From Stomatobaculum sp. F0698 (lineage in GTDB: Bacteria > Bacillota > Clostridia > Lachnospirales > Lachnospiraceae): DNA of 64,000 nt. The translations under genes and the position numbers were made by a program. This document shows positions 17,723 to 28,300 of this stretch, one piece after another; the first letter of the stretch is position 1; each line of letters begins with the position of its first letter. Location: NCBI RefSeq assembly GCF_030644385.1, contig NZ_CP130060.1, forward strand, positions 1,488,001-1,552,000, read 5' to 3'. The notes under the pieces were generated by a model. That model had not been told where the DNA came from, ran no database searches, and saw only the letters and a list, made by a program, of their open reading frames with translations.

Positions 17723-17804
17723 ATGTAAAGGACGGCTCCTCCCTTGGAATCAGGGAAGTCTCAAAGATGCATCACGATGAAGGTTTCAAGCCAAAAGCCC
17801 CTTA

Positions 17805-17833
17805 TTGACATAGCGCTGTTACGCCGGTAGAAT
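17805..17833 (+). promoter_or_regulatory. Promoter of structured RNA copy A
   Basis: TTGACA (17805-17810), 17-bp spacer, TAGAAT (17828-17833). Predicted start of transcription near 17840, about 18 bases before the conserved RNA domain. Confidence 0.8.
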
Positions 17834-17839
17834 AGTTGA

Positions 17840-18047
17840 TAACTAAATTGTACGGTGGGCTGACACCTAAATCCGACGCCTGACGAGAACGGCGTAAACT
17901 CGTCTAGTGGGCTTGCACATTAAGAGCCGTAAGGCAGCAAGAAACCTTGCCGGACGAATGTGCCGGTGGCTGGCGGACAGCGGAAAAATCAGCCGACAAA
18001 GGGGAAGATAGACACTACGGTGTCTATCTTCCCCTTTGAAATTTTTA
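17840..18047 (+). ncRNA. Structured RNA copy A (unrecognised family), with 3' hairpin
   Basis: A 137-nt domain (17858-17994) is closed by GGCTGA/TCAGCC. Inside are stem ACGCC/GGCGT (17876-17880 with 17891-17895), whose loop GACGAG (17882-17887) pairs with CTCGTC (17899-17904) to form an H-type pseudoknot; CTTGC/GCAAG enclosing a CC-GTAA-GG tetraloop hairpin; GCCGG/CCGGT; and GCTG/CAGC. An 18-bp hairpin with a C(TACG)G loop follows (17998-18037), then GAAATTTTT. A diverged copy lies inverted at 20098-20308, and paired bases change together between the copies. No matching riboswitch or RNA family comes to mind. Downstream lies the lipoprotein gene. Confidence 0.75.
17998..18047 (+). terminator. 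Long UNCG-capped hairpin at the 3' end of RNA A (possible terminator or attenuator)
   Basis: 18 perfect base pairs with a C(TACG)G loop, then GAAA and five T. The T run is set off from the stem by four bases, so termination may be partial, letting some transcription reach the lipoprotein gene. Confidence 0.65.
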
Positions 18048-18132
18048 CTCCGATAGTTCGCAGTGCAGTATCGTAGACCCCCATATGAACATGTTGTATA
18101 ATAAGAATCGCAAACGCCGAAAGGAGACAGAA

Positions 18133-18738
18133 ATGTTAAAGAAGAGAATTTTTGTTTTGATAACGGCAGTGGCGATGCTTGGATCTGTCCTTATTGGTTG
18201 CGGAAACGAGAAAAAAGAAGTTGAAACCACAGCAAGCACTTCTGTTGAAGCGTCCGCAGAAACAAGTGCAAGTCCTAAGCGCGAAGTAAAGATGTATACC
18301 TATAACGACGGAACATACGGCCCCTACAACATTCCGTCCTATGACGAAAACAACCAATATGCGCAGAAGCTCAAAGAAGCCTACGCCTCCGATGCATACC
18401 CCGGTGTTTACATTGCAAGAGTAGATAAGGGTTGGATCTGGTATTGGGAGCCTGAGACGGACGACGGAAATTATTACTATATCGGCAGCGTAGATAATCC
18501 CAATTATCTTCAGGGCGATGATCTGAATCGCTTCCTTATGGATATTAAAATCAACCTGAATAAGTTCATTGAGAAGTGTGAGGCAGGAGAACTGCATCCA
18601 ATCGATCTCGATGGCGACGGAAGCATTTCTTATCCCGAAGCGTATATTGAGTCCTTCTTTGCTATCAAATCAAATCAGGATAAGCCCTATAACGGTTTGA
18701 TCATTTTTTTTGATTTCGATGATATTCTATGGGAATAA
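18133..18738 (+). CDS. Predicted lipoprotein, unknown function
   Basis: 201 residues from the ATG at 18133, preceded by AAAGGAG; an upstream ATG in frame at 18085 lacks a ribosome site. The N-terminus is a lipoprotein signal (MLKKRIFVLITAVAMLGSV, lipobox LIGC), followed by a Ser/Thr/Glu linker. The rest has many aromatic and acidic residues, and DLDGDGSISYPEAY near residue 163 matches an EF-hand-type calcium loop. It is the first gene after RNA copy A and is followed by a 74-residue protein. Function unknown; base composition is lower in GC than flanking core genes. Confidence 0.7.
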   Translation: MLKKRIFVLITAVAMLGSVLIGCGNEKKEVETTASTSVEASAETSASPKREVKMYTYNDGTYGPYNIPSYDENNQYAQKLKEAYASDAYPGVYIARVDKGWIWYWEPETDDGNYYYIGSVDNPNYLQGDDLNRFLMDIKINLNKFIEKCEAGELHPIDLDGDGSISYPEAYIESFFAIKSNQDKPYNGLIIFFDFDDILWE

Positions 18739-18817
18739 GTCTAAAAAATAAAATGCTTTGATTGATTGTTCTAAAAGAACGTGTGCCGCCCCCCGTGAGG
18801 CGGGAAAGGAGGTTTAA

Positions 18818-19042
18818 ATGAGAATCAAGTTCACCGAAGAAGAGAAGCGATTGTTTGATAAGGTCAGGCCCTACGCCGCTACGAAAGGATGGGGGCTTCG
18901 CCCGGATGCGCCTCCGGAGATTCAAGCTATCTATGCCAGACTGGTAGAGATAACCAACCAATATCTGAGCCCGTATTCGATACCTATTAAACCTATTCAT
19001 AAGGATTCTTGCGATTTATCGGGCGATAACCAAGACAACTGA
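18818..19042 (+). CDS. Small hypothetical protein
   Basis: 74 residues starting after a strong AAAGGAGG site. The N-terminal half is charged and helical (TEEEKRLFDKVRPYAATKG), the C-terminus polar. No family recognised. It ends 14 bases before an intrinsic terminator, and with the lipoprotein gene forms the two-gene unit led by RNA copy A. Its size and position would fit an immunity or partner protein, but nothing in the sequence proves that. Confidence 0.6.
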   Translation: MRIKFTEEEKRLFDKVRPYAATKGWGLRPDAPPEIQAIYARLVEITNQYLSPYSIPIKPIHKDSCDLSGDNQDN

Positions 19043-19056
19043 ATCACAGCGACGAA

Positions 19057-19086
19057 AGCACAGCCATAACGGCTGTGCTTATTTTG
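19057..19086 (+). terminator. Intrinsic terminator at the meeting point of the two RNA-led operons
   Basis: AGCACAGCC, 5-base loop, GGCTGTGCT, then TATTTT. It separates the plus-strand unit from the convergent minus-strand unit. Confidence 0.85.
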
Positions 19087-19130
19087 TGCTCAGGGGGGCG
19101 GGGTAAGGACGACATGCCGCCTTCATTCCA

Positions 19131-19349
19131 TTAATCCCAGTAAACGTGATTCTGGGCAGCGATGTCGTCATATATCCTCTGAATTCTTCGCCCTTCCTCA
19201 TCCGGTTCATCATTATGCGAGACAATGTTATCTACTACCACATCATCAACAGCATCCAATAGCGCATCGACATCATCGGCAGATATCAATTCCCCAATAT
19301 TCTCGATGTAAGGTCTCAACGCCTCAATCTGCTCAACCGTTATAATCAC
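19131..19349 (-). CDS. Small acidic protein, possible partner of the PBECR4-like protein
   Basis: 72 residues, strongly acidic (MIITVEQIEALRPYIENI; later DDVDALLDAVDDVVVD). Its start overlaps the last 17 bases of the upstream gene, indicating translational coupling. A small acidic protein coupled behind a putative nuclease fits a toxin-inhibitor pair, but the link is inference. No family name is given. Confidence 0.6.
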   Translation of the reverse strand: MIITVEQIEALRPYIENIGELISADDVDALLDAVDDVVVDNIVSHNDEPDEEGRRIQRIYDDIAAQNHVYWD

Positions 19350-20085
19350 GTTTTTCTCCTTTCGCTTTTGAATAGGAAGAATTTACTTGCACAATATTTC
19401 CCGGGTCCGTGTGACTGATACGGATTATTTCCACGCGTGTAGGGAAGTCACCTATCGTAGCTCCAACCGTAGGTAGCTTCAAACACCTTTTTATATTTCT
19501 GGGCAAGACAATAGTATTGACATCCAACCCCTTCGCGATGTAACACAGTTCTTGATACTGACCAATGTCAACATGTTTTCTGAATATAGCCAGAACTTTT
19601 TGAGGCTGATAGAGTGAGAAATTGCGGATATCCCCTTCACGAGCAGTATTCGGTATATAAAATCCATTTTGGAAAATGAATCCCAGAAACGCTTTTGTAT
19701 TTCCAACCAGTTTATCGGTATATTGCATAGATCGAACGGGATTGTAGGTACCGACCATTTTAGCTATGAGATGTACTTTGGTTAGCCATGGGAGAACGGA
19801 GAGTTTTCTCTCAGTTGTTCCATTCACCGCCATAGAGAAGTCATTCGGATTTAGAATTCCATTCATGGCCTTCTGATAGAAAACACTGCTGCTCAGAATC
19901 TTATCAGAGACAGGCCTGACTCCCGTGAGATGAAGAAAATTACTTGGCAGAAAAATAGTTTCAAAGAAGTCCGGCTTGCTTGGAGAACCGTATACAATTA
20001 ATAGATTTCGGTTCTCCAGGTTATTGTGGTATTCCCTCGCACAGCATACGATGATTCTTGTTGCAAGCCTCTTCGAGATTTTCAT
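19333..20085 (-). CDS. PBECR4-like domain protein (predicted nuclease fold)
   Basis: 250 residues from the ATG at 20085, preceded by GGAG right after the hairpin of RNA copy B. The open frame runs further upstream but that part lies across the RNA. Segments such as IFLPSNFLHLTGV (residue ~55), NDFSMAVNGTTERKLSVLP (~95) and GFYIPNTAREGDIR (~155) recall proteins annotated PBECR4 (phage Barnase-EndoU-ColicinE5/D-RelE-like nuclease), common on Firmicute phages and ICEs. The name is from memory and not checked. The small acidic gene overlaps its 3' end. GC content is lower than in core genes. Confidence 0.5.
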   Translation of the reverse strand: MKISKRLATRIIVCCAREYHNNLENRNLLIVYGSPSKPDFFETIFLPSNFLHLTGVRPVSDKILSSSVFYQKAMNGILNPNDFSMAVNGTTERKLSVLPWLTKVHLIAKMVGTYNPVRSMQYTDKLVGNTKAFLGFIFQNGFYIPNTAREGDIRNFSLYQPQKVLAIFRKHVDIGQYQELCYIAKGLDVNTIVLPRNIKRCLKLPTVGATIGDFPTRVEIIRISHTDPGNIVQVNSSYSKAKGEKRDYNG

Positions 20086-20097
20086 TGCGTTTTCTCC

Positions 20098-20147
20098 TAA
20101 AATTTCAAGAGGGAACATTGGCACCGCAGTGCTAATGTTCCCTCTTG
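20098..20147 (-). terminator. UNCG-capped hairpin at the 3' end of RNA B
   Basis: CAAGAGGGAACATT pairs with AATGTTCCCTCTTG, with an inner GCAC(TGCG)GTGC; AAATTTTA follows. Like the hairpin in copy A the T run is offset, so it may act as an attenuator rather than a full stop. Confidence 0.6.
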
Positions 20148-20308
20148 GCGGCTGATTTTTTCGCTGTTCGCCAGCTCGCCGACCCATTCGTTCGGCACGA
20201 TTTCTTGCTACCTTACGGCTCCTCATGTGCAAGCCCACCAGATATGTTTACGCTAATCATATCGAGCGTCGAATTAAGGTGTCAGCCCACCGCAGACTAA
20301 ATGTCTGC
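20098..20308 (-). ncRNA. Structured RNA copy B (inverted, diverged copy of RNA A)
   Basis: On the minus strand the 138-nt domain (20287 down to 20150) aligns end to end with copy A. The closing helix GGCTGA/TCAGCC is kept. The pseudoknot helices change on both sides: ACGCT/AGCGT for ACGCC/GGCGT, and GATATG/CATATC for GACGAG/CTCGTC. GCCGA/TCGGC replaces GCCGG/CCGGT. Unpaired blocks such as GTGGGCTTGCACAT and GAGCCGTAAGG are identical. A hairpin with a C(TGCG)G loop follows (20147-20106), then AAATTTT and the ribosome site of the PBECR4-like gene, making this its 5' leader or an upstream sRNA. Confidence 0.75.
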
Positions 20309-20314
20309 ATGTTT

Positions 20315-20343
20315 AGTATACCAGAACAAACGAGATAAATCAA
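20315..20343 (-). promoter_or_regulatory. Promoter of structured RNA copy B
   Basis: On the minus strand TTGATT (20338-20343), 17-bp spacer, TATACT (20315-20320). The spacing to the RNA domain is slightly longer than in copy A. Confidence 0.75.
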
Positions 20344-20559
20344 TTAGTATCCAATGATATCTGTAAAATCAATCTTCCGGAAGTCGGCATCTGTAAGCGC
20401 AGAAAGCTTATGGAGAAGGCTTGTTAGTTGCTCGACCAATTCAGAGTCTTCTATTGCGGGAAGATTGTGCTCTATATTCTGCATCACCTTTTCGAGAGAC
20501 GAACTTCCCAAATCTGAATAGAGCTCTATTAGAGTTCGTTCTTCTATTGAAAAAGCCAT
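20344..20559 (-). CDS. Small helical protein resembling transposon-transfer-assisting (TTRAP-like) proteins
   Basis: 71 residues from the ATG at 20559, which has AAGGAG 9 bases upstream; a second ATG two codons earlier is too close to that site. MAFSIEERTLIELYSDLG followed by a helical, acidic region ending in KLSALTDADF resembles short proteins of Firmicute ICEs annotated as transposon-transfer assisting. That annotation is from memory. Its stop codon abuts the promoter of RNA copy B. It suggests an old integrative element in this region. Confidence 0.5.
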   Translation of the reverse strand: MAFSIEERTLIELYSDLGSSSLEKVMQNIEHNLPAIEDSELVEQLTSLLHKLSALTDADFRKIDFTDIIGY

Positions 20560-20765
20560 GTTCATTTTCTCCTTTTCATTGGTTTGTTCCGCTGTCTGCT
20601 TATCAGATTGATGGGACTCCTTGGAGTACAAATCCGCTTTCTTTAAAACGAAAGCAGATGTTGGGGGAAACTCCTCAGATTCCCTATTTGACTTTGTACG
20701 CGCCGGATTCTCTTCGTGTGTGCGGCAATAACACCCGGTAGCTCTTAGTCTCTATGTACAACGGG

Positions 20766-20915
20766 GGATTACCCCTGCGCATGCAGGGAAAACTATTCCA
20801 TCAAAACCACAGGCTGAGATTATCACGAATCACCCCCGCGTGTGCGGGGAAAACCGCGCCTTAGCGCGTCCGCGGGGCATAGGTGTTGGATCACCCCCGC
20901 TCATGCGGGGAAAAC
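20766..20915 (-). CRISPR. CRISPR block 1: three worn type I-E repeats
   Basis: 28-bp repeats begin at 20766, 20827 and 20888, keeping the 61-bp period of the main array. All carry changes from the consensus in the stem or loop (for example CTGCGCATGCAG). Two 33-bp spacers lie between. This is the oldest, leader-far end of the locus. Confidence 0.85.
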
Positions 20916-20972
20916 TGTGCTTACGTTACTGTTATTCAGTTGGTGTTGCTGTGGCCAGATATATTACCAGAG

Positions 20973-21224
20973 TTATCCATTATGAGCTTCGCCGTGCGAA
21001 GATAGTAGATCATTCAGATTGATATCAAGTCCGAACTTTCTCACGTCCGCATCGCGGGCCAGAAGCTCATTTTTTATTGTGTCCAGCGCTTCATAATACG
21101 CGAGAGCCCGTCCCGCCTTGTATTCCCTATAGGGCAGTTGTCTCGCCTCTTCTGCCGCGTCTTTAGCGTTTCGCAGAACTCTCGAAACTATATACTCCCA
21201 TTCATCGTTTGTCAGTTCTCTCAT
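20973..21224 (-). CDS. Small hypothetical protein lying between CRISPR blocks
   Basis: 83 residues, helical and charged (MRELTNDEWEYIVSRVLR; later YREYKAGRALAYYEALDTI). AAAGGAG lies about 10 bases before the ATG. The gene fills most of the 341-bp gap between CRISPR blocks 1 and 2, in the direction of array transcription. No family recognised; probably mobile-element cargo. Confidence 0.6.
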   Translation of the reverse strand: MRELTNDEWEYIVSRVLRNAKDAAEEARQLPYREYKAGRALAYYEALDTIKNELLARDADVRKFGLDINLNDLLSSHGEAHNG

Positions 21225-21256
21225 ATTCTCCGCGCTCCTTTAACTCTATGACTCTA

Positions 21257-21771
21257 GGATTACCCCCGCGCATGCGGGGAAAAGTTGGAACAACCTTAAT
21301 TCTTTGAATGCAACTTGGGATTACCCCCGCGCATGCGGGGAAAACCAAAGACCCAAGCCCCCGTTAATCAGCGCCTCGGGATCACCCCCGCGTGTGCGGG
21401 GAAAAGGTGGCTGCATACGACAAAAGCTGTACTTTCAGCGAATCACCCCCGCGTGTGCGGGGAAAAGCCATGATGGTACACTCTGCCATCTCACACCCCC
21501 GGATCACCCCCGCGTGTGCGGGGAAAACTGGCTCGTCAGAATCACGTCGGTGGTATAAACCGGATCACCCCCGCGTGTGCGGGGAAAACTCGATAATCTG
21601 GTATCTCCAAAATCTCCGATTTGGATCACCCCCGCGTGTGCGGGGAAAACAGCGTGAGCGCGGCAGTGAGCAGGCCGGAGGCAGGATCATCTCCGCGTAT
21701 GCGGGGAAAACGTGGTTTGTAAAATGGATGTGGATCAAGTGCCGGGATTACCCCGCGTATGCGAAGAAAAC
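21257..21771 (-). CRISPR. CRISPR block 2: nine type I-E repeats
   Basis: Repeats start at 21257, 21318, 21379, 21440, 21501, 21562, 21623, 21684 and 21745, an exact 61-bp period. Several carry changes at the first or last base, and the last (21745-21771) is one base short with a broken stem. Eight spacers. Followed on the low-number side by the 83-residue gene and on the high side by a tiny-gene cassette. Confidence 0.9.
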
Positions 21772-21820
21772 TGTGACAGCACCGCAAGCAAAGCGAGAAA
21801 AATGAAAGGAGGAAAAAGCT

Positions 21821-21997
21821 GTGAAACGGAAAAGAGCAAAAAAAGATAAGCGTCTTGAAAAGCTCAAACTCTTCGCTGAATACTGCACGGCTATATCTGC
21901 CATAATCTCTACCGTGCATATGGCAATCACCTATGCACCTGGCATAGTACAAGCGACGATGAAGCTGCTCAAAACGCTTTATCTAATCGCGAGCTAA
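21821..21997 (+). CDS. Tiny basic membrane protein, cassette 1 gene a
   Basis: 58 residues, GTG start with AAAGGAGG 8 bases upstream. The N-terminus is strongly basic (KRKRAKKDKRLEKLK), followed by one hydrophobic helix and a KTL-type C-terminus. It resembles in layout and in several residues the 61-residue protein at 23662 (RRKRARKKKR start, LSKTL end). It begins 49 bases after a broken CRISPR repeat. Charge and size recall small membrane toxins or holin-like peptides; function is unknown. Confidence 0.55.
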   Translation: MKRKRAKKDKRLEKLKLFAEYCTAISAIISTVHMAITYAPGIVQATMKLLKTLYLIAS

Positions 21998-22008
21998 TGC
22001 TCGCGAGA

Positions 22009-22045
22009 AGCGGGCGCCGGCCGCAACCGGCGCTCGGTTCTTTTC
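22009..22045 (+). terminator. Terminator-like hairpin between cassette 1 genes
   Basis: GCGCCGG pairs with CCGGCGC around a short loop, followed by TCGGTTCTTTTC. Cassette 2 has a hairpin with a T run at the matching place. Confidence 0.5.
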
Positions 22046-22063
22046 TAGTATAGCTTGAACTCC

Positions 22064-22215
22064 ATGAAAAGTACACTCCTGCTACGAATGGGCTTTGTAT
22101 GGGCTTGCGTCGCGCTTTTCCTACTCGGCGGGGGGCGCTTGTCCCTAGCATAGTGCTTGTAGTATCCACCGCTTGCTATCTGCTGTATATGCTGAAGCAT
22201 CGGACCGACCTCTAG
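22064..22215 (+). pseudogene. Tiny hydrophobic protein, cassette 1 gene b, apparently frameshifted
   Basis: ATGAAA begins a 29-residue hydrophobic ORF that stops early at 22153. Reading one base out of phase after the run of six G near 22131-22136 continues with LVPSIVLVVSTACYLLY and stops at 22213-22215, matching the LAPGMCVLAASTC part of the 48-residue cassette 2 protein. So a one-base change in the G run probably split the gene. Confidence 0.5.
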
Positions 22216-22304
22216 ATGTCCCACGTCCATGTATGTAGCTCGTCACGTCGCCGTTGGCATGCAGCTCTTCACGACGACAGCGGCTCGCATCGCGCGGACG
22301 TGTG

Positions 22305-22393
22305 CAGCGGGCCCCCCGCATGCGGGGAAAAACCGGATAAAGCGGGGGATGTTTCGTCCCGTCGCAATCCCCCCCCGCGTGTGCGGGGAAAAC
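22305..22393 (-). CRISPR. CRISPR block 3: two degenerate repeats
   Basis: The repeat at 22366-22393 keeps the stem but its first bases differ (AATCCCC). The one ending at 22333 is badly worn in its first half and has an extra A. A 32-bp spacer lies between. Confidence 0.7.
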
Positions 22394-22503
22394 GATTCAA
22401 TTATGTTTTAAGCACAGACCGACGAGACTCCGGGTTTCTTTTTTTTATTGACGACTATCAGTTTGAACGACTTTGAAATGACCCCTATCCTTATATAGAA
22501 CGT

Positions 22504-22887
22504 TTGAGGGAATTCCCGTGTGCCCTGACGCTAGATTTTAGCTTATATATGGATATACCCATGGCTATGAAAATTTGGAATGTGTATCGCTCTCGGCTTA
22601 TTGGTCAGATGATGCAGGATGCCGACATAGTGGTTATTTCAACGCTTAGTTGGGCTGAGCCCGAAACCTTTTCTTTTTGCTTTGAGATGCTGGAGCAAGG
22701 CGGCGTGGTTGCCGTATCAACAGTTGGGGTGATGCGTAACAAGAGTGCGCAATAAGTTTGGGCTGCTGGAATGAATGAAGCGGGGCAAAGGCTAAGGTCG
22801 TCTGGAATTCTTTGCTATGGATCCAAACCCGACTATGATTTTGGGTCGCTTCCGGTGAGATTCGTCAGCGCGAGGAAGTTCGGTTGA
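22504..22887 (+). pseudogene. DUF4417-like protein with internal stop codon
   Basis: The frame reads LYMDIPMAMKIWNVYRS, then LSWAEPETFSFCFEML and VAVSTVGVMRNKSAQ, which recalls DUF4417 proteins from phages and ICEs of Firmicutes. A TAA at 22753-22755 interrupts it; the same frame then continues VWAAGMNEAGQRLRSSG, LCYGSKPDYDFG to a TGA at 22885-22887. So one codon became a stop and the gene is dead unless read through. The N-terminal part also looks cut short. Confidence 0.6.
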
Positions 22888-23295
22888 TGGGGAAAGAGGG
22901 GCAAGCGGTGGTTATCACGTGGGAGACGCGCGGGACACTTATGGAGATGAATATCAGTTTGTGGATCAATATCGCAACATTAAGTTTATAAAGGTGAAAT
23001 CCGGATCTTCAAAGGCACCTTTGGAAACGAGAACGAGAGATTGCATATATGTTACGCTTGGAGGGAAAAATCAGGATACGCCAAAACAGTAACATATTAT
23101 GATAAAAAGGTAAAAAGCGAAAGCAAATTGATATCAGCAGCAACGCACATCGCATCGGCGATGTGGTTATTCCTACACCACATACACATTTGGGTTATAT
23201 GCATGATGGAAAGACGCGAAGTCTATCAGTGAGAGAGCAAAAAACACTTGACACTATTTTAAGAGTGTGGGACATTAGGAAAAGCAAAGACTAGC
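22888..23295 (+). pseudogene. Decayed mobile-element gene, at least two frameshifts
   Basis: Three frames carry connected coding: DTYGDEYQFVDQYRNIKFI, then TVTYYDKKVKSES, then HRIGDVVIPTPHTHLGYM and EQKTLDTILRVWDIRKSKD ending in TAG near 23295. Together they read like one protein of a phage or ICE, broken by frameshifts near 23090 and 23150. I do not recognise the family. Confidence 0.5.
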
Positions 23296-23305
23296 ATACG
23301 AAGGA

Positions 23306-23437
23306 ATGCCATTGGAGCCCGGTGCAAATCCGGGGATTTGCGTAAAGGATCGCAGAGATGCGGTCCTTTTTGCTGTGCAGAAAAGAGGAAAATATGGGGT
23401 ACAGATGGCCCGAGAAACAGAGAAAATGAACTGGTGA
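23306..23437 (+). CDS. Short ORF, possible mobile-element remnant
   Basis: An ATG at 23306 opens 43 codons (MPLEPGANPGICVKDRRDAV to a TGA) following directly on the decayed gene. No clear ribosome site. May be a fragment of a longer protein. Confidence 0.3.
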   Translation: MPLEPGANPGICVKDRRDAVLFAVQKRGKYGVQMARETEKMNW

Positions 23438-23448
23438 GAGGATGAATA

Positions 23449-23621
23449 ATGAAAAGAACATGGGTCCGGTTCGAAGCAGTGATGAAGCAAGGGATCGAGG
23501 GAGAAATGGCGGCATTGCCTCCGGGAAATCCAGAAGGCGAAAAAAGAGGTACGGGAGCGGTTAAAAGAAGCACTAAACTGTGCAGTGGTGAATCCCAAAG
23601 TGAAAAGCATGATGAAGCAAG
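23449..23621 (+). pseudogene. Small gene fragment cut off at a CRISPR repeat
   Basis: ATGAAAAGAACATGG begins MKRTWVRFEAVMKQGIEGE; one base out of phase the coding continues as EIQKAKKEVRERLKEAL and VNPKVKSMMKQGI. Coding then runs straight into the CRISPR repeat at 23622. The phrase MKQGI occurs at both ends. Frameshifted and 3'-truncated. Confidence 0.45.
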
Positions 23622-23649
23622 GGATTACCCCCGCGCATGCGGGGAAAAC
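23622..23649 (-). CRISPR. CRISPR block 4: single repeat
   Basis: One 28-bp repeat with the CGCGCATGCG loop variant shared with blocks 2, 5 and the first repeat of the main array. No spacer-repeat neighbour. It lies immediately before the ribosome site of the cassette 2 gene. Confidence 0.75.
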
Positions 23650-23661
23650 GGAGGAAGTGCT

Positions 23662-23847
23662 ATGCGAAGAAAAAGAGCAAGAAAAAAGAAGCGTTTTAGC
23701 TGGATATCAGCCACAGCATACGCGCTCGGCGCTATCGTAAAAGTGCATGTAGTCTATACCCATGGACACCATCTACTACCCGTAGTCGTCGCACTACTAC
23801 ACGAGCTGTCAAAAACGCTTCATCACCAATATAGCCTGCTCCGCTAA
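23662..23847 (+). CDS. Tiny basic membrane protein, cassette 2 gene a
   Basis: 61 residues: RRKRARKKKRF at the N-terminus, a hydrophobic middle with many His and Val, and LSKTLHHQYSLLR at the end. GGAGG lies 7 bases before the ATG and directly touches the CRISPR repeat ending at 23649, so the repeat would be in or next to its leader. Same plan as the protein at 21821. No family recognised. Confidence 0.55.
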   Translation: MRRKRARKKKRFSWISATAYALGAIVKVHVVYTHGHHLLPVVVALLHELSKTLHHQYSLLR

Positions 23848-23910
23848 TAGGTGTAGGGAATCCACCGCGTGTGCAGCGGGTTTCCTCTTTTTTATTCTAG
23901 CATAAACCGC

Positions 23911-24057
23911 ATGAAAGAAAATATCTTTTTTATAGCTATGTGCGTTTTCTATGTCGTGTATCTCATAAGCGGGCATGTGCTTGCGCCTGGTATGTGCGTG
24001 CTTGCAGCGTCCACATGCGACACGATGTCTCGCGCCTCGCACCGGCTCCGCCGCTAG
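23911..24057 (+). CDS. Tiny hydrophobic protein, cassette 2 gene b
   Basis: 48 residues, starting ATGAAAGAAAAT after a T-rich hairpin region. One long hydrophobic segment (IFFIAMCVFYVVYLISG), then a polar, basic tail ending in RASHRLRR. The middle resembles the out-of-frame continuation of cassette 1 gene b. The paired arrangement a-hairpin-b occurs twice in this region. Confidence 0.5.
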   Translation: MKENIFFIAMCVFYVVYLISGHVLAPGMCVLAASTCDTMSRASHRLRR

Positions 24058-24237
24058 TCATAGCGCGCCGCGCTTGCAGGCGTGGGGCGGTATGATATAG
24101 CTATCTCGCAAAGCGCTTACCTCGCAGACGGGCACACGAAAACGGCCACTATATATAGCTCTCTTTGGCGCTCTATGAAGGCGGACGCTGCTCCGCCGAG
24201 CGCTGTCGGATGCATGCTGACTCCTCTACGGAACAAA
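24058..24237. other. Intergenic stretch without a supported gene
   Basis: Contains short GC-rich inverted repeats (for example GGCGGACGCTGCTCCGCC near 24180) and TATATATA near 24152. I see no coding sequence I can support. Confidence 0.4.
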
Positions 24238-24265
24238 GAAAAGGCGGGCCTATGCCCTCCTTTTT
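24238..24265 (-). terminator. Terminator of the RHH-protein gene
   Basis: On the minus strand AAGGAGGGC, a 4-base loop and GCCCGCCTT followed by TTCTTTG. One mismatch in the stem. Lies about 30 bases after the stop. Confidence 0.6.
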
Positions 24266-24296
24266 ACTTGCCCCTTTCAACCTCGCTTTTCACCTC

Positions 24297-24500
24297 TTAA
24301 CGCCCGCCTACGCCATCCCGATTCGCCGTGTCTCCTATATGCTCCGCAAGTACTCGCTTTATAAAGCCGCTCACCGTCTCGCACGTCGCATCGGCTACGG
24401 CACGTACTCGCTCAAAGTCCTCCTTTTTCAGCTCCAGCATAAAGCGCTTGTATACGCGCTTTTTATAGGCGTTGATCTTCTGCGTTCTGCTCTTATCCAT
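24297..24500 (-). CDS. Ribbon-helix-helix (Arc-type) small protein
   Basis: 67 residues. INAYKKRVYKRFMLELKK followed by DFERVRAVADATCETVSGF and IKRVLAEHI fits the beta-alpha-alpha layout of Arc/MetJ repressors; small proteins of this kind are frequent on plasmids and ICEs of Clostridia. It could be a repressor or mobilisation accessory. It opposes the tiny-gene cassette and has its own terminator. Confidence 0.65.
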   Translation of the reverse strand: MDKSRTQKINAYKKRVYKRFMLELKKEDFERVRAVADATCETVSGFIKRVLAEHIGDTANRDGVGGR

Positions 24501-24702
24501 GTAGCCCCCACTCTCGCGCGTTTTTTTCCTGTCCTCTCATACTAACACATACCTCCGCAGTTGTGCATACAGCATTTCTCGCATTTTTTTGCTCTTTGTT
24601 TTTTGGATTTTTCTGGCATCTAGTTGTCTGCACATCAGCGTTATCATAAGGCCATCTCAAGCAAGCGCCGCGAGTGCGGCGCACACCCGAAAGGAGATGT
24701 AC

Positions 24703-24999
24703 CATGACAGTCAACTCTTCCGCCCTTACTGCTACTCGCGAGCTTCTCACGCACGCAAAGACCGCAGCGCGTGGAATCACGGCGTTACCGTTTACGCGCT
24801 TGATCTACCGGACGCCTTCATAGACGCCTCCGCAACCGAGCTAGAACGCTCTGCTCTACTCAACGGCGCCTCTAGCTGGGCAGAGTACAGCCATGGCGGC
24901 TCCGCCTTAATCTCCGATAGTGATATCGCAAAGCGTCTGTGCACTCCATCCGAGCTCAAGCGCAAGCGCGGCGACGAGCTGCCCCCGAACTCGCGAGAG
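24703..24999 (+). pseudogene. Mobile-element hypothetical protein, frameshifted and truncated at a CRISPR repeat
   Basis: After AAAGGAG an ATG opens 39 codons (MTVNSSALTATRELLTHAKT ...). Near 24760 the coding continues in another frame as RSAWNHGVTVYALDLPDAF, LLNGASSWAEYSHGG and AKRLCTPSELKRKRG, typical of a short protein common on Lachnospiraceae ICEs, whose normal C-terminal third is missing here because the CRISPR repeat at 25000 follows at once. Confidence 0.55.
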
Positions 25000-25027
25000 G
25001 GGTCACCCCCGCGCATGCGGGGAAAAC
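25000..25027 (-). CRISPR. CRISPR block 5: single repeat
   Basis: One 28-bp repeat (GGGTCACC start, CGCGCATGCG loop). It cuts a mobile-element gene on one side and touches the stop of the 64-residue gene on the other; a 278-bp insert with that gene separates it from the main array. Confidence 0.8.
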
Positions 25028-25221
25028 TACTGTAGCCCAGCGCCCTCTTTATCCTTGAGTAACCCTGAAATCTCATCTGCACTGACTTCAATCGTATCCC
25101 AATCAGGACCCTCTAAGTCTACATCTACGATATACTCGACGTTTTCTTTCAGAATCTCCACTACCGTAGCTGTCCTACCATCTTTCAAAATCACTTTAGA
25201 ATACTGTGAATATCGCTCCAT
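25027..25221 (-). CDS. Small beta-rich hypothetical protein between CRISPR blocks
   Basis: 64 residues from the ATG at 25221, with GGAG 8 bases upstream; the frame is open further up without a site. Sequence VILKDGRTATVVEILKENV followed by YIVDVDLEGPDW suggests a small SH3-like barrel as in DUF4926-type proteins, many of which look like immunity proteins. Assignment is loose. Its stop shares a base with CRISPR block 5. Confidence 0.55.
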   Translation of the reverse strand: MERYSQYSKVILKDGRTATVVEILKENVEYIVDVDLEGPDWDTIEVSADEISGLLKDKEGAGLQ

Positions 25222-25305
25222 TATCTCAGCTCCTGTTCGTAACGTATACACTGGTCAAACGGTAATCATCACCATACTGAATCCATGTGGCCATTACCTT
25301 AGTCG

Positions 25306-28300
25306 GGATCACCCCCGCGCATGCGGGGAAAACAAACCATCAATCAGATGCTTTCCGCCCACCTCGGGATCACCCCCGCGTGTGCGGGGAAAACCCGCCG
25401 CGCTTAGAGATTTCCACAGCATCGACAGGATCACCCCCGCGTGTGCGGGGAAAACTCCTTGAGTTTGCCCTTGGGTACATCGAGATAGGGATCACCTCCG
25501 CGTGTGCGGGGAAAACTTGTCCTTTTCCTTTTTCAGTACCTCGATGGCGGGATCACCCCCGCGTGTGCGGGGAAAACGACCACCTAACGCCATGCCGATT
25601 AACGCGCCTGGGATCACCCCCGCGTGTGCGGGGAAAACCCGTGCGGCGGAAGTTACTGCCGTGGGCGGCGAGGATCACCCCCGCGTGTGCGGGGAAAACC
25701 CTGTGCACGCCTTAAAAATCCCCGCATCAAAGGGATCACCCCCGCGTGTGCGGGGAAAACGGCATCATCCGCGCGGCGTCGGGGGTGGTCGAGGGATCAC
25801 CCCCGCGTGTGCGGGGAAAACAAGGAGGACGGTCCGAAGTTTGAGCGCGTAGAGGGATCACCCCCGCGTGTGCGGGGAAAACGGGAGGGCGGAGACGCTG
25901 ACGGCGGCTATACAGGGATCACCCCCGCGTGTGCGGGGAAAACTTTCACGGAGGTAGACGGATGAATCAGGTCGTAGGATCACCCCCGCGTGTGCGGGGA
26001 AAACGGAGACATCTCGCCTCTCACGGCGGTGGTGATAGGATCACCCCCGCGTGTGCGGGGAAAACCAAGTTCAGATTTTTATTCTGGATATGTCATTAGG
26101 ATCACCCCCGCGTGTGCGGGGAAAACTATAAACCCCGTTGTTTTATATAAATGTTGACAGGATCACCCCCGCGTGTGCGGGGAAAACAGTCGCCCTTGTG
26201 GTCGCGGCAGTGGTCACGCAGGATCACCCCCGCGTGTGCGGGGAAAACAGGAGCTGATACGCGCAGGCGGGGGCGACGGAGGGATCACCCCCGCGTGTGC
26301 GGGGAAAACTGTGTAGTCTGCTTGGTGGTTGTCCCGTGCTGGGGATCACCCCCGCGTGTGCGGGGAAAACGTTCTTCTCGTTCTTCTCGTGTTTCTGCGT
26401 TCAGGATCACCCCCGCGTGTGCGGGGAAAACTCAACAAATTCAGACAAAGCAGCCAGCATATTAGGATCACCCCCGCGTGTGCGGGGAAAACACATTTCT
26501 TCTATGTGCAAACAGCCGTCTATGAGGATCACCCCCGCGTGTGCGGGGAAAACTATATCACGAGTGAAAACGATGAAGAGATGCAGGGATCACCCCCGCG
26601 TGTGCGGGGAAAACTAACGCATCAAGATTTGTAAGAATCTCGGCATAGGATCACCCCCGCGTGTGCGGGGAAAACAACGGGCGACCTCGCAGAGGGCAGA
26701 GAGCTGGAGGATCACCCCCGCGTGTGCGGGGAAAACTTCTACGGACAAACATAGTATCACATGGGGAAAGGATCACCCCCGCGTGTGCGGGGAAAACAGA
26801 AGGGCAGTTTTTTGTTGATAGCGTTAGATAGGATCACCCCCGCGTGTGCGGGGAAAACTCTTTGCCGGTTCCGCAGCGGTCTTGACTCTGAGGATCACCC
26901 CCGCGTGTGCGGGGAAAACTAATGCGTCAAGATTAGTAAGAATCTCGGCATAGGATCACCCCCGCGTGTGCGGGGAAAACGTCGGTACCGTATACATAGA
27001 TGACGGCTCGCGGGGATCACCCCCGCGTGTGCGGGGAAAACTTGACTACAAGCAGAGACCGCAGCTTGAGCGGAGGATCACCCCCGCGTGTGCGGGGAAA
27101 ACGATTGCGTTCCTGCCGTTGTCGAAATTTGTGTAGGATCACCCCCGCGTGTGCGGGGAAAACCCTTTTCCGGTACTCCGTCCAGATCCGCATATAGGAT
27201 CACCCCCGCGTGTGCGGGGAAAACCTTGGACAGTCACGGATGATGGACAGAGAATCAGGATCACCCCCGCGTGTGCGGGGAAAACAGCGTTAAAGCAGGT
27301 TTCTAAAATAATGCTAAAGGATCACCCCCGCGTGTGCGGGGAAAACTTCTGGAAAGAATGCGGATGCCGTCCCGCGCAAGGATCACCCCCGCGTGTGCGG
27401 GGAAAACATGCAGAGCCCTGGGATTTAGAGCGCAGCACGAGGATCACCCCCGCGTGTGCGGGGAAAACTCTCAGAGCCGAGGTCAAAATATCCTTCGGAA
27501 AGGATCACCCCCGCGTGTGCGGGGAAAACCTCAACAAAATGCTTCACGACCTCGGCGTACAGGGATCACCCCCGCGTGTGCGGGGAAAACGTTTCACCTA
27601 CAAGAACGTTATCCTGCAGGGCAGGATCACCCCCGCGTGTGCGGGGAAAACGAAGTTTGCAAACATGGTAGTCGTACCGGAGCAGGATCACCCCCGCGTG
27701 TGCGGGGAAAACTGGGCAGGCGCGTGCATCCAGAGCGTGCGAGCGGGATCACCCCCGCGTGTGCGGGGAAAACCTCCTGAGTAATCTCTCCGGAAAGCAT
27801 CCGAAGGGATCACCCCCGCGTGTGCGGGGAAAACTTCCGGAGAGCCCGGAAGCGCTGCGCCTGCGGAGGATCACCCCCGCGTGTGCGGGGAAAACCTGCA
27901 CGCAAAAAGGACCGCTCCGGAATCACGAGGATCACCCCCGCGTGTGCGGGGAAAACGGACAATAACACATGAAAACAAGAGCGCTTATAGGATCACCCCC
28001 GCGTGTGCGGGGAAAACCACGCCGTTGATTTCCTGAGTTCTCTGATAAAAGGATCACCCCCGCGTGTGCGGGGAAAACCAGGTGCAATCCTCGGCGCGGA
28101 TAAGGTGGTCAGGATCACCCCCGCGTGTGCGGGGAAAACCGAAAGTCCTTCTCATGGAAAATGTAGAGGAAAGGATCACCCCCGCGTGTGCGGGGAAAAC
28201 GCCGGACCCGCAAGACTCACCTCCTGCTAACCGGGATCACCCCCGCGTGTGCGGGGAAAACGAGAGGATAGAGGGGGTTGAGCTGTGAGTCATAGGATCA

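Follow-up and report, generated by a model that had tools for sequence, protein, structure and literature searches.

PBECR4-associated pseudoknotted RNAs in Stomatobaculum sp. F0698 and a proposed type III-like toxin-antitoxin module

The 64,000-nucleotide stretch of Stomatobaculum sp. F0698 analysed here (contig NZ_CP130060.1, positions 1,488,001 to 1,552,000; hereafter the window) contains two inverted copies of a structured RNA, RNA A (17840–18046, plus strand) and RNA B (20098–20308, minus strand), and RNA B lies 5′ of a gene (19333–20085, minus strand) whose product matches Pfam family PBECR4 (PF18813, E = 2.6e-27, 96.8 bits against a cut-off of 27), a predicted BECR-fold RNase. We propose, with a probability of roughly 73%, that RNA B and PBECR4 constitute a type III-like toxin-antitoxin module in which the RNA would be the antitoxin of a BECR-type RNase, toxicity and neutralisation being the parts that we infer. 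A first-pass annotation of the window described both RNAs, with positions and orientations that are confirmed here, and overlooked both the predicted RNase encoded behind RNA B and the presence of such RNAs at the loci of its relatives.

RNA A and RNA B are 80% identical across 194 bases (E = 1.6e-43) and are the only copies that blast finds in the 2.15-Mb genome; the nine remaining rows are the palindromic terminator of RNA A itself (one) and chance matches at E values above 2 (eight). Each RNA has the promoter with a 17-bp spacer ascribed to it earlier, recovered by a pattern scan as TTGACA-17-TAGAAT for RNA A (17805–17833, plus; 11 of 12 consensus positions) and TTGATT-17-TATACT for RNA B (20343–20315, minus; nine of 12), and the start of RNA A given above is the presumed transcription start. 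The region as a whole is not enriched over shuffled sequence in promoter-like sites (eight against 5.6) or terminator-like sites (three against 2.6). RNA A ends in an intrinsic-terminator-like hairpin of 19 pairs found by terminator scan, with a UACG loop and a T-rich tail (17997–18046, plus), and RNA B in a hairpin with a UGCG loop and a T-rich tail (20098–20148, minus) that is visible in the fold and the alignment and was missed by the scan, for which its T-run is too short. By eye, these UNCG-type loops (TACG and TGCG in the DNA) stand ahead of TTGAAATTTT, as had been described. RNA B also has a 5′ hairpin, GCAGAC-loop-GTCTGC (20292–20308, minus; fold and pattern scan).

One shared structure of 44 pairs, pseudoknots included, can be drawn for the two RNAs, and all 44 pairs are kept in both. 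The 148 aligned columns hold 28 substitutions, 12 of which make six compensated pairs; two further pairs are changed on one side and none is broken. Random placement of the same number of substitutions gives a mean of 0.68 double changes and never six in 5000 trials, a control that flatters the structure in that it was drawn with both copies in view. The paired changes originally cited for the pseudoknot stand for ACGCC/GGCGT (one compensated pair) and GACGAG/CTCGTC (three), and in part for GCCGG/CCGGT, which has one compensated pair and one single-side change; a fourth covarying case is TCCG/CGGA in RNA A against TTCG/CGAA in RNA B. Folding z-scores are -6.1 and -5.8 for the two RNAs with the strong end hairpin included. 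In RNA A (plus strand), alignment and structure comparison place first a hairpin, H0, of sequence GGTG[GGCTGA]CACC (17854–17867), the loop of which (17858–17863) pairs with TCAGCC at 17989–17994. There follow a stretch at 17872–17904, made up of strand b′ (17872–17875) and an H-type pseudoknot that is supported by compensated changes against RNA B (helices 17876–17880/17891–17895 and 17882–17887/17899–17904), and a stretch at 17907–17994 with hairpin H1 (17907–17918), a small hairpin, a helix (17949–17953/17963–17967), hairpin H2 (17969–17981; its loop pairs with b′) and the closing strand (17989–17994).

Relatives of these RNAs were sought by blast among 250 genomes of the same family, giving, besides a sister species (genome G072), short matches in six genomes, all at one part of the RNA. 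Seven of the 17 first places from the family (L014, L018–L021, L024 and L025) had the look of chance matches in coding DNA and were dropped by eye, and L012 and L013, which come without the 5′ part, were excluded from alignments. A 25-base degenerate pattern taken from the 3′ part matches at least 119 loci in named genomes and one viral contig, and the resulting set of 120 RNAs (the matches listed) defines what we call class 1. Two hairpin units are recognised by pattern in 95 of the 120 matches listed, 22 are without a recognisable H0, and three were counted as single-unit. In L016, L017, L244 and L247 the class-1 RNA has one internal unit and not two, as if one repeat had been deleted.

Alignment A7 comprises 28 members, 27 of them representatives (under 86% identity) of the 87 distinct two-unit RNAs among the matches listed, plus one further RNA (L131). 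They follow a common plan of loop pairings: the H0 loop (a) with the terminal bases of the RNA (a′), the loop of H2, the last hairpin, with strand b′, and the loop (c) of H1, which stands between b′ and H2, with the strand that immediately follows H1 (c′). In A7 there was little room for variation in the columns of H2, its loop and part of the closing strand, as these had been fixed by the search pattern. Pairing holds in 97.8% of cells (shuffled mean 90.3%; none of 500 shuffles as high), 67 cells are changed on both sides (24.3 in shuffles) and covariation is 0.242 (0.107), with no shuffle of 500 as high on either measure. Nine pairs are changed on both sides (6.5; two of 500 as high), and further pair types number 16, no more than in the shuffles (17.4). 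When partners are slid by one to three columns pairing falls to 29–59%. The most telling pairing is that of loop c with c′, which occurs as CAGG/CCTG, GGAG/CTCC, CGGA/TCCG, GAAG/CTTC, GGAA/TTCC and TGGA/TCCA, and the helix between b′ and H1 is not scorable on A7 because the subgroups differ by one column in where MAFFT places it.

A covariance model, R1, built from these 28 relatives with no window sequence, matches RNA A at 17852–17994 (57.1 bits, E = 2.5e-12) and RNA B at 20293–20150 (53.0 bits, E = 2.9e-11). The window RNAs are a diverged form of class 1 in which the first internal stem is replaced by the H-type pseudoknot; their two repeat units have diverged, and it is the first that holds this pseudoknot. 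Tandem repeats are seen elsewhere, with units of 57 nt (2.1 copies) in the RNA of an Avibacterium plasmid and of 32 nt (2.2 copies) in one of the RNA types recognised by eye upstream of other PBECR4 genes. The earlier view that selection acts on the structure of the RNA is borne out by these further homologues and their compensatory changes, which a covariance model had been proposed to find. Comparison with Rfam, proposed alongside it, leaves the RNA outside any known family: nothing in the entire window reaches gathering score, and a search of 17750–20400 at a permissive threshold gives nine sub-threshold rows up to E = 10, the best at E = 0.17. Neither the drum RNA (RF02958, threshold 43 bits) nor the abiF motif (RF03085) matches in the window or appears among the rows up to E = 10, and assignment of the window RNAs to a known RNA family was rejected. 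The defence models of PADLOC have no match either.

Class-1 RNAs are linked to PBECR4 genes. Excluding seven of the 120 pattern matches that are too near a DNA end, 113 of the matches listed have at least 300 nt of downstream DNA, and in 76 of these a PBECR4 gene follows within 400 nt on the same strand (median E = 2.4e-69, worst 7.8e-05). Among the other 37 of the matches listed, a PBECR4 remnant lies behind the RNA in six, compared with none of 35 control stretches, and none is found in the other 31; RNAs kept beside gene remnants are as expected of what a toxin and its antidote leave behind. Some class-1 RNAs without PBECR4 stand ahead of other genes, namely DUF3990, NADAR and SocA_Panacea (L202, L258 and L197), and at L164:2195–2665 (minus) the position of PBECR4, immediately after a class-1 RNA with its hairpin, is taken by a 157-residue protein of no Pfam family, possibly another toxin. 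In a family sample of 394 genomes R1 has 42 places in 36 genomes, six of which have two, and 21 of the 42 are within 300 nt upstream of a PBECR4 match. The corresponding figure for drum RNAs is 15 of 18 places (200 genomes). One of the three drum exceptions (L343) has a PBECR4 remnant behind it (42 residues, 64% identity, E = 1.3e-14 by tblastn); the other two (L342 and L344) have no significant PBECR4 match by tblastn, which lowered our odds for a toxin-antitoxin module slightly.

The linkage is also seen from the side of the gene. PF18813 is present in 69 of 397 same-family genomes and in three of 249 across the phylum, two of the three belonging to the family of Stomatobaculum itself. Of 30 PBECR4 genes read by eye, nearly all are preceded by a promoter, a structured RNA and a hairpin (at L133 the upstream DNA is too short); drum was found by Rfam at 11 of 20 loci scanned, and the others resemble the window RNAs. 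In a set of 66 PBECR4 loci, covariance models place R1 upstream of 15 and drum upstream of 22 (37 of 66 together), and five recurrent RNA types recognised by eye account for 18 more (c5, six loci; c6, five; c7, three; c8, two; c9, two). At the c5 loci (L318, L323, L325, L326, L328 and L331) tandem GGTCGGGnnnnAGACC pseudoknot-like units precede PBECR4, with no Rfam match there. The remainder consists of six loci with an upstream stretch that could not be placed, one at a contig edge and four without an RNA directly upstream. Three of these four (L320, L322 and L329) are short or split frames, and the fourth (L334) covers only profile positions 2–70 in a frame of 197 residues and has an R1 place 1.5 kb further upstream on the same strand. 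At G302:C1:151868–153708 an R1 match and a partial PBECR4 match share a strand, with R1 upstream and 1.5 kb between the two, which has the look of an interruption. A terminator-like hairpin lies within 140 nt upstream of 52 of the 66 PBECR4 loci and of 109 of 600 control open reading frames (ORFs) in a relaxed scan, which was picked after the strict result had been seen, since outer A-T pairs had swallowed the T-run; the strict scan shows enrichment as well (35 of 66 and 88 of 600).

Judged from the sequences, RNA class follows toxin clade. On a tree of 93 toxins built by a quick method, class 1 versus drum needs one change, and all eight RNA labels need nine changes (the least possible being seven; shuffled mean 34.3; none of 200 shuffles as low). 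The tree began from 130 labelled loci, from which 18 were dropped (14 whose matched stretch was shorter than 120 residues and four without a protein match at E = 1e-3) and near-copies were then removed to give the 93; it leaves out L121, L123, L125, L126, L133 and L134 as well as the PBECR4 loci covered only in part. Since the c5–c9 labels were assigned by eye and the tree contains long branches and near-copies, the test is one of clustering rather than of exact history. So tight a pairing of RNA class and protein clade would fit any obligate ribonucleoprotein, including one in which the RNA serves as guide, cofactor or sensor for PBECR4 in attacking invaders and is no antidote at all. We regard this as improbable, in that the variable parts of A7 are, by eye, mostly helices and offer no free guide-like strand, some RNAs persist where the protein gene is a remnant, and an RNA in a phage genome with no PBECR4 in the 9.8 kb examined, described below, fits a decoy.

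Plasmids and phages carry these loci too. Eight loci identified by protein comparison alone were examined: the single phage record, the single viral contig and six out of 29 plasmid records. Drum stands ahead of PBECR4 in three Enterococcus/Streptococcus plasmids and the viral contig, and R1 does so in Erysipelothrix phage phi1605 (63.4 bits; one stop inside the PBECR4 frame), a 4.3-kb Avibacterium plasmid (62.4 bits) and a Macrococcoides plasmid (38.4 bits). In a Ligilactobacillus plasmid R1 is found on the strand opposite PBECR4, approximately 60 bases past its stop codon (41.9 bits), and another gene is upstream; the identity of this PBECR4 comes from the record annotation together with a weak tblastn match (E = 5e-4). 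An RNA so placed should have its own promoter and hence can hardly act only as a leader. The viral contig matched by the 25-base pattern (L274), which has portal and terminase genes, contains a class-1 RNA that fills the gap between genes for transfer RNAs (tRNA-Ile and tRNA-Thr) and has no terminator. It scores 100.9 bits with R1, being itself one of the 28 members of A7, and no PBECR4 is present within the 9.8 of 38 kb examined; a second pattern scan again gave this contig only. This RNA may be released by tRNA processing and act as a decoy, and phage PhiTE is described as carrying antitoxin-like repeats, pseudo-ToxI, against ToxIN (PMC3475682). The window RNAs themselves have no copies in phage and plasmid DNA by blastn, and the 14-base block GTGGGCTTGCACAT occurs at 80 loci in viral contigs, as expected for so short a pattern.

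Because of the opposite-strand RNA in one plasmid and the copy in a phage tRNA cluster with no PBECR4 in the 9.8 kb examined, class-1 RNAs probably act in trans, one of the options left by the first-pass annotation. Two other relationships between RNA and gene were considered. The RNA could be a cis-acting leader, an attenuator or riboswitch-like 5′ region setting read-through into PBECR4 and possibly binding the PBECR4 protein, with no neutralisation involved; the usual position upstream on the same strand with a terminator-like hairpin between RNA and gene agrees with this, and the AbiF RNA also affects expression of its toxin gene (PMC12373285). We consider it unlikely, given the copies without a gene (RNA A and the remnant loci), the opposite-strand and tRNA-cluster positions, the tandem repeat units and the presence of several different RNA types in the same slot. 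A structured RNA beside a toxin-like gene could alternatively be an antisense-type antitoxin or regulator that pairs with the toxin mRNA, as in type I systems. This appears very doubtful, as the conserved letters sit in a covarying fold common to the class and the Ligilactobacillus RNA is past the stop codon rather than over the gene; no search was made for complementarity with the mRNA of the toxin.

Under the preferred toxin-antitoxin reading, a single promoter would give a short, multiply pseudoknotted RNA, most transcripts ending at the end hairpin and a minority reading through into PBECR4. Free PBECR4 would be toxic as an RNase. The RNA would fold into a compact particle of repeated hairpin units that binds and blocks the PBECR4 protein directly, perhaps once that protein has cleaved it within the A-rich linkers that separate the units, and loss of the RNA supply, for example upon takeover by a phage, would free the toxin and so could serve an anti-phage role. 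RNA A would then be a second, toxin-free copy, either a backup for RNA B or the leftover of a lost module.

A wider reading, which we hold to be somewhat more probable than its negation, is that PBECR4 proteins are the toxins of a large RNA-neutralised superfamily unrelated to ToxN, with many separate classes of RNA antitoxin (drum, the class of the window and five or more others), every class tied to a particular toxin clade, and that phages counter them with antidote RNAs placed in tRNA clusters and released by tRNA processing. If true, this would give the drum RNA its function, and the type III class would grow considerably by the addition of a second, diverse family of toxins neutralised by RNAs of their own. 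It offers a testable role for drum and for several unnamed RNAs, as well as an explanation for a predicted nuclease family common in the Lachnospiraceae, and it predicts that phages evade such defence by mimicking the RNA from within a tRNA cluster. PBECR4 and PF18813 are not mentioned in the literature searched, to which papers under other licences do not belong, so an earlier report is possible; titles and abstract openings of the type III papers listed likewise hold no link to PBECR.

The PBECR4 protein of the window has a C-terminal tail of approximately 50 residues that is absent from aligned relatives. Sequence comparison with solved structures gives nothing, and two predicted PBECR4 models (mean pLDDT 76.5 and 87.8) give at best weak RelE-like rows in structural comparison, with no clear fold assignable; ToxN-like toxins are absent among the structural rows listed, which proves nothing. 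The end of the gene is overlapped by an ORF of 72 codons (19131–19349, minus; from the ORF list), the second gene behind RNA B. Behind RNA A are a lipoprotein-like ORF of no Pfam family (18133–18738, plus), with a promoter-like site of its own at 18074–18102, and a 74-residue ORF, also of no Pfam family (18818–19042, plus); no PBECR4 remnant is detectable there by tblastn. In PHROG the lipoprotein-like product weakly resembles a superinfection-exclusion Sie-like family (E = 0.0065), a similarity that is probably too slight to be meaningful. A terminator scan finds a terminator-like hairpin at 19056–19080 between the convergent gene pairs, so that of the two operons reported to converge on a shared terminator the gene pairs and the hairpin are present, and their status as operons is presumptive.

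The sister species has the same convergent arrangement and the same flanks, with 92–97% DNA identity, and the 72-residue ORF is not found in it. A stretch at approximately 19110–19481, spanning the PBECR4 C-terminal tail and this ORF, has no match there, the rest of the island being 92–96% identical. Adjoining RNA B is a gene for a putative transposon-transfer assisting protein (TTRAP, PF14203; 20344–20559, minus; E = 1.2e-10), possibly the remnant of a conjugative element, and Type I-E-looking CRISPR repeats (e.g. GGATCACCCCCGCGTGTGCGGGGAAAA) start approximately 450 bases past RNA B and extend over about 20760–26100, by eye. The two inverted RNA copies and the adjoining TTRAP gene could suggest a mobile unit with the RNAs as its ends, as proposed at first; we give this almost no weight, and RNA-encoding inverted ends are not supported, as the genome has two copies only, place and flanks are the same in the sister species, and relatives elsewhere are not paired in this way, two R1 matches in one genome outside the genus lying on different contigs or far apart.

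Comparison with known systems brings the toxin-antitoxin proposal closest to type III. The drum RNA (RF02958), which is mentioned in RNA papers, occupies the same slot ahead of PBECR4 genes that belong to another clade. It has no match in the window RNAs, its Rfam type is given only as 'Gene; sRNA', and to our knowledge it has no known function. PBECR domains, to which Pfam assigns the product of the gene behind RNA B (as PBECR4), are described, in the accessible part of the source, as predicted metal-independent endoRNases, whereas the PBECRs presented there are polyvalent and solo phage proteins without an RNA partner (PMC5512222). In AbiF, again a structured RNA stands ahead of a protein of abortive-infection type, and experiments showed that a published RNA motif is an RNA antitoxin which binds the protein directly and neutralises it whether supplied in cis or in trans (PMC12373285), so an RNA motif ahead of a non-ToxN toxin can be its antidote; the AbiF protein family is Abi_2, and its RNA, RF03085, is a different one. 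A published account of type III modules gives the layout as repeat RNA, terminator and endoRNase gene (PMC5086642), and the families described there are ToxN relatives, with AbiF a recent outlier (PMC5086642, PMC12373285). Differences from those systems are that the toxin proposed here is PBECR4, for which the predicted fold is BECR, that the RNA classes are others, and that one plasmid has its RNA on the opposite strand. The resemblance to ToxIN, CptIN and TenpIN lies in a structured RNA with pseudoknotted repeat units, an intrinsic terminator and then an endoribonuclease gene, here a predicted one: RNA B, its end hairpin and PBECR4 follow one another in that order, as do the corresponding parts at many PBECR4 loci of the family, and tandem pseudoknot repeats are found in the class as a whole. 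The occurrence on plasmids and phages is shared as well, and the phage-borne RNA would parallel the mimicry described for PhiTE pseudo-ToxI (PMC3475682).

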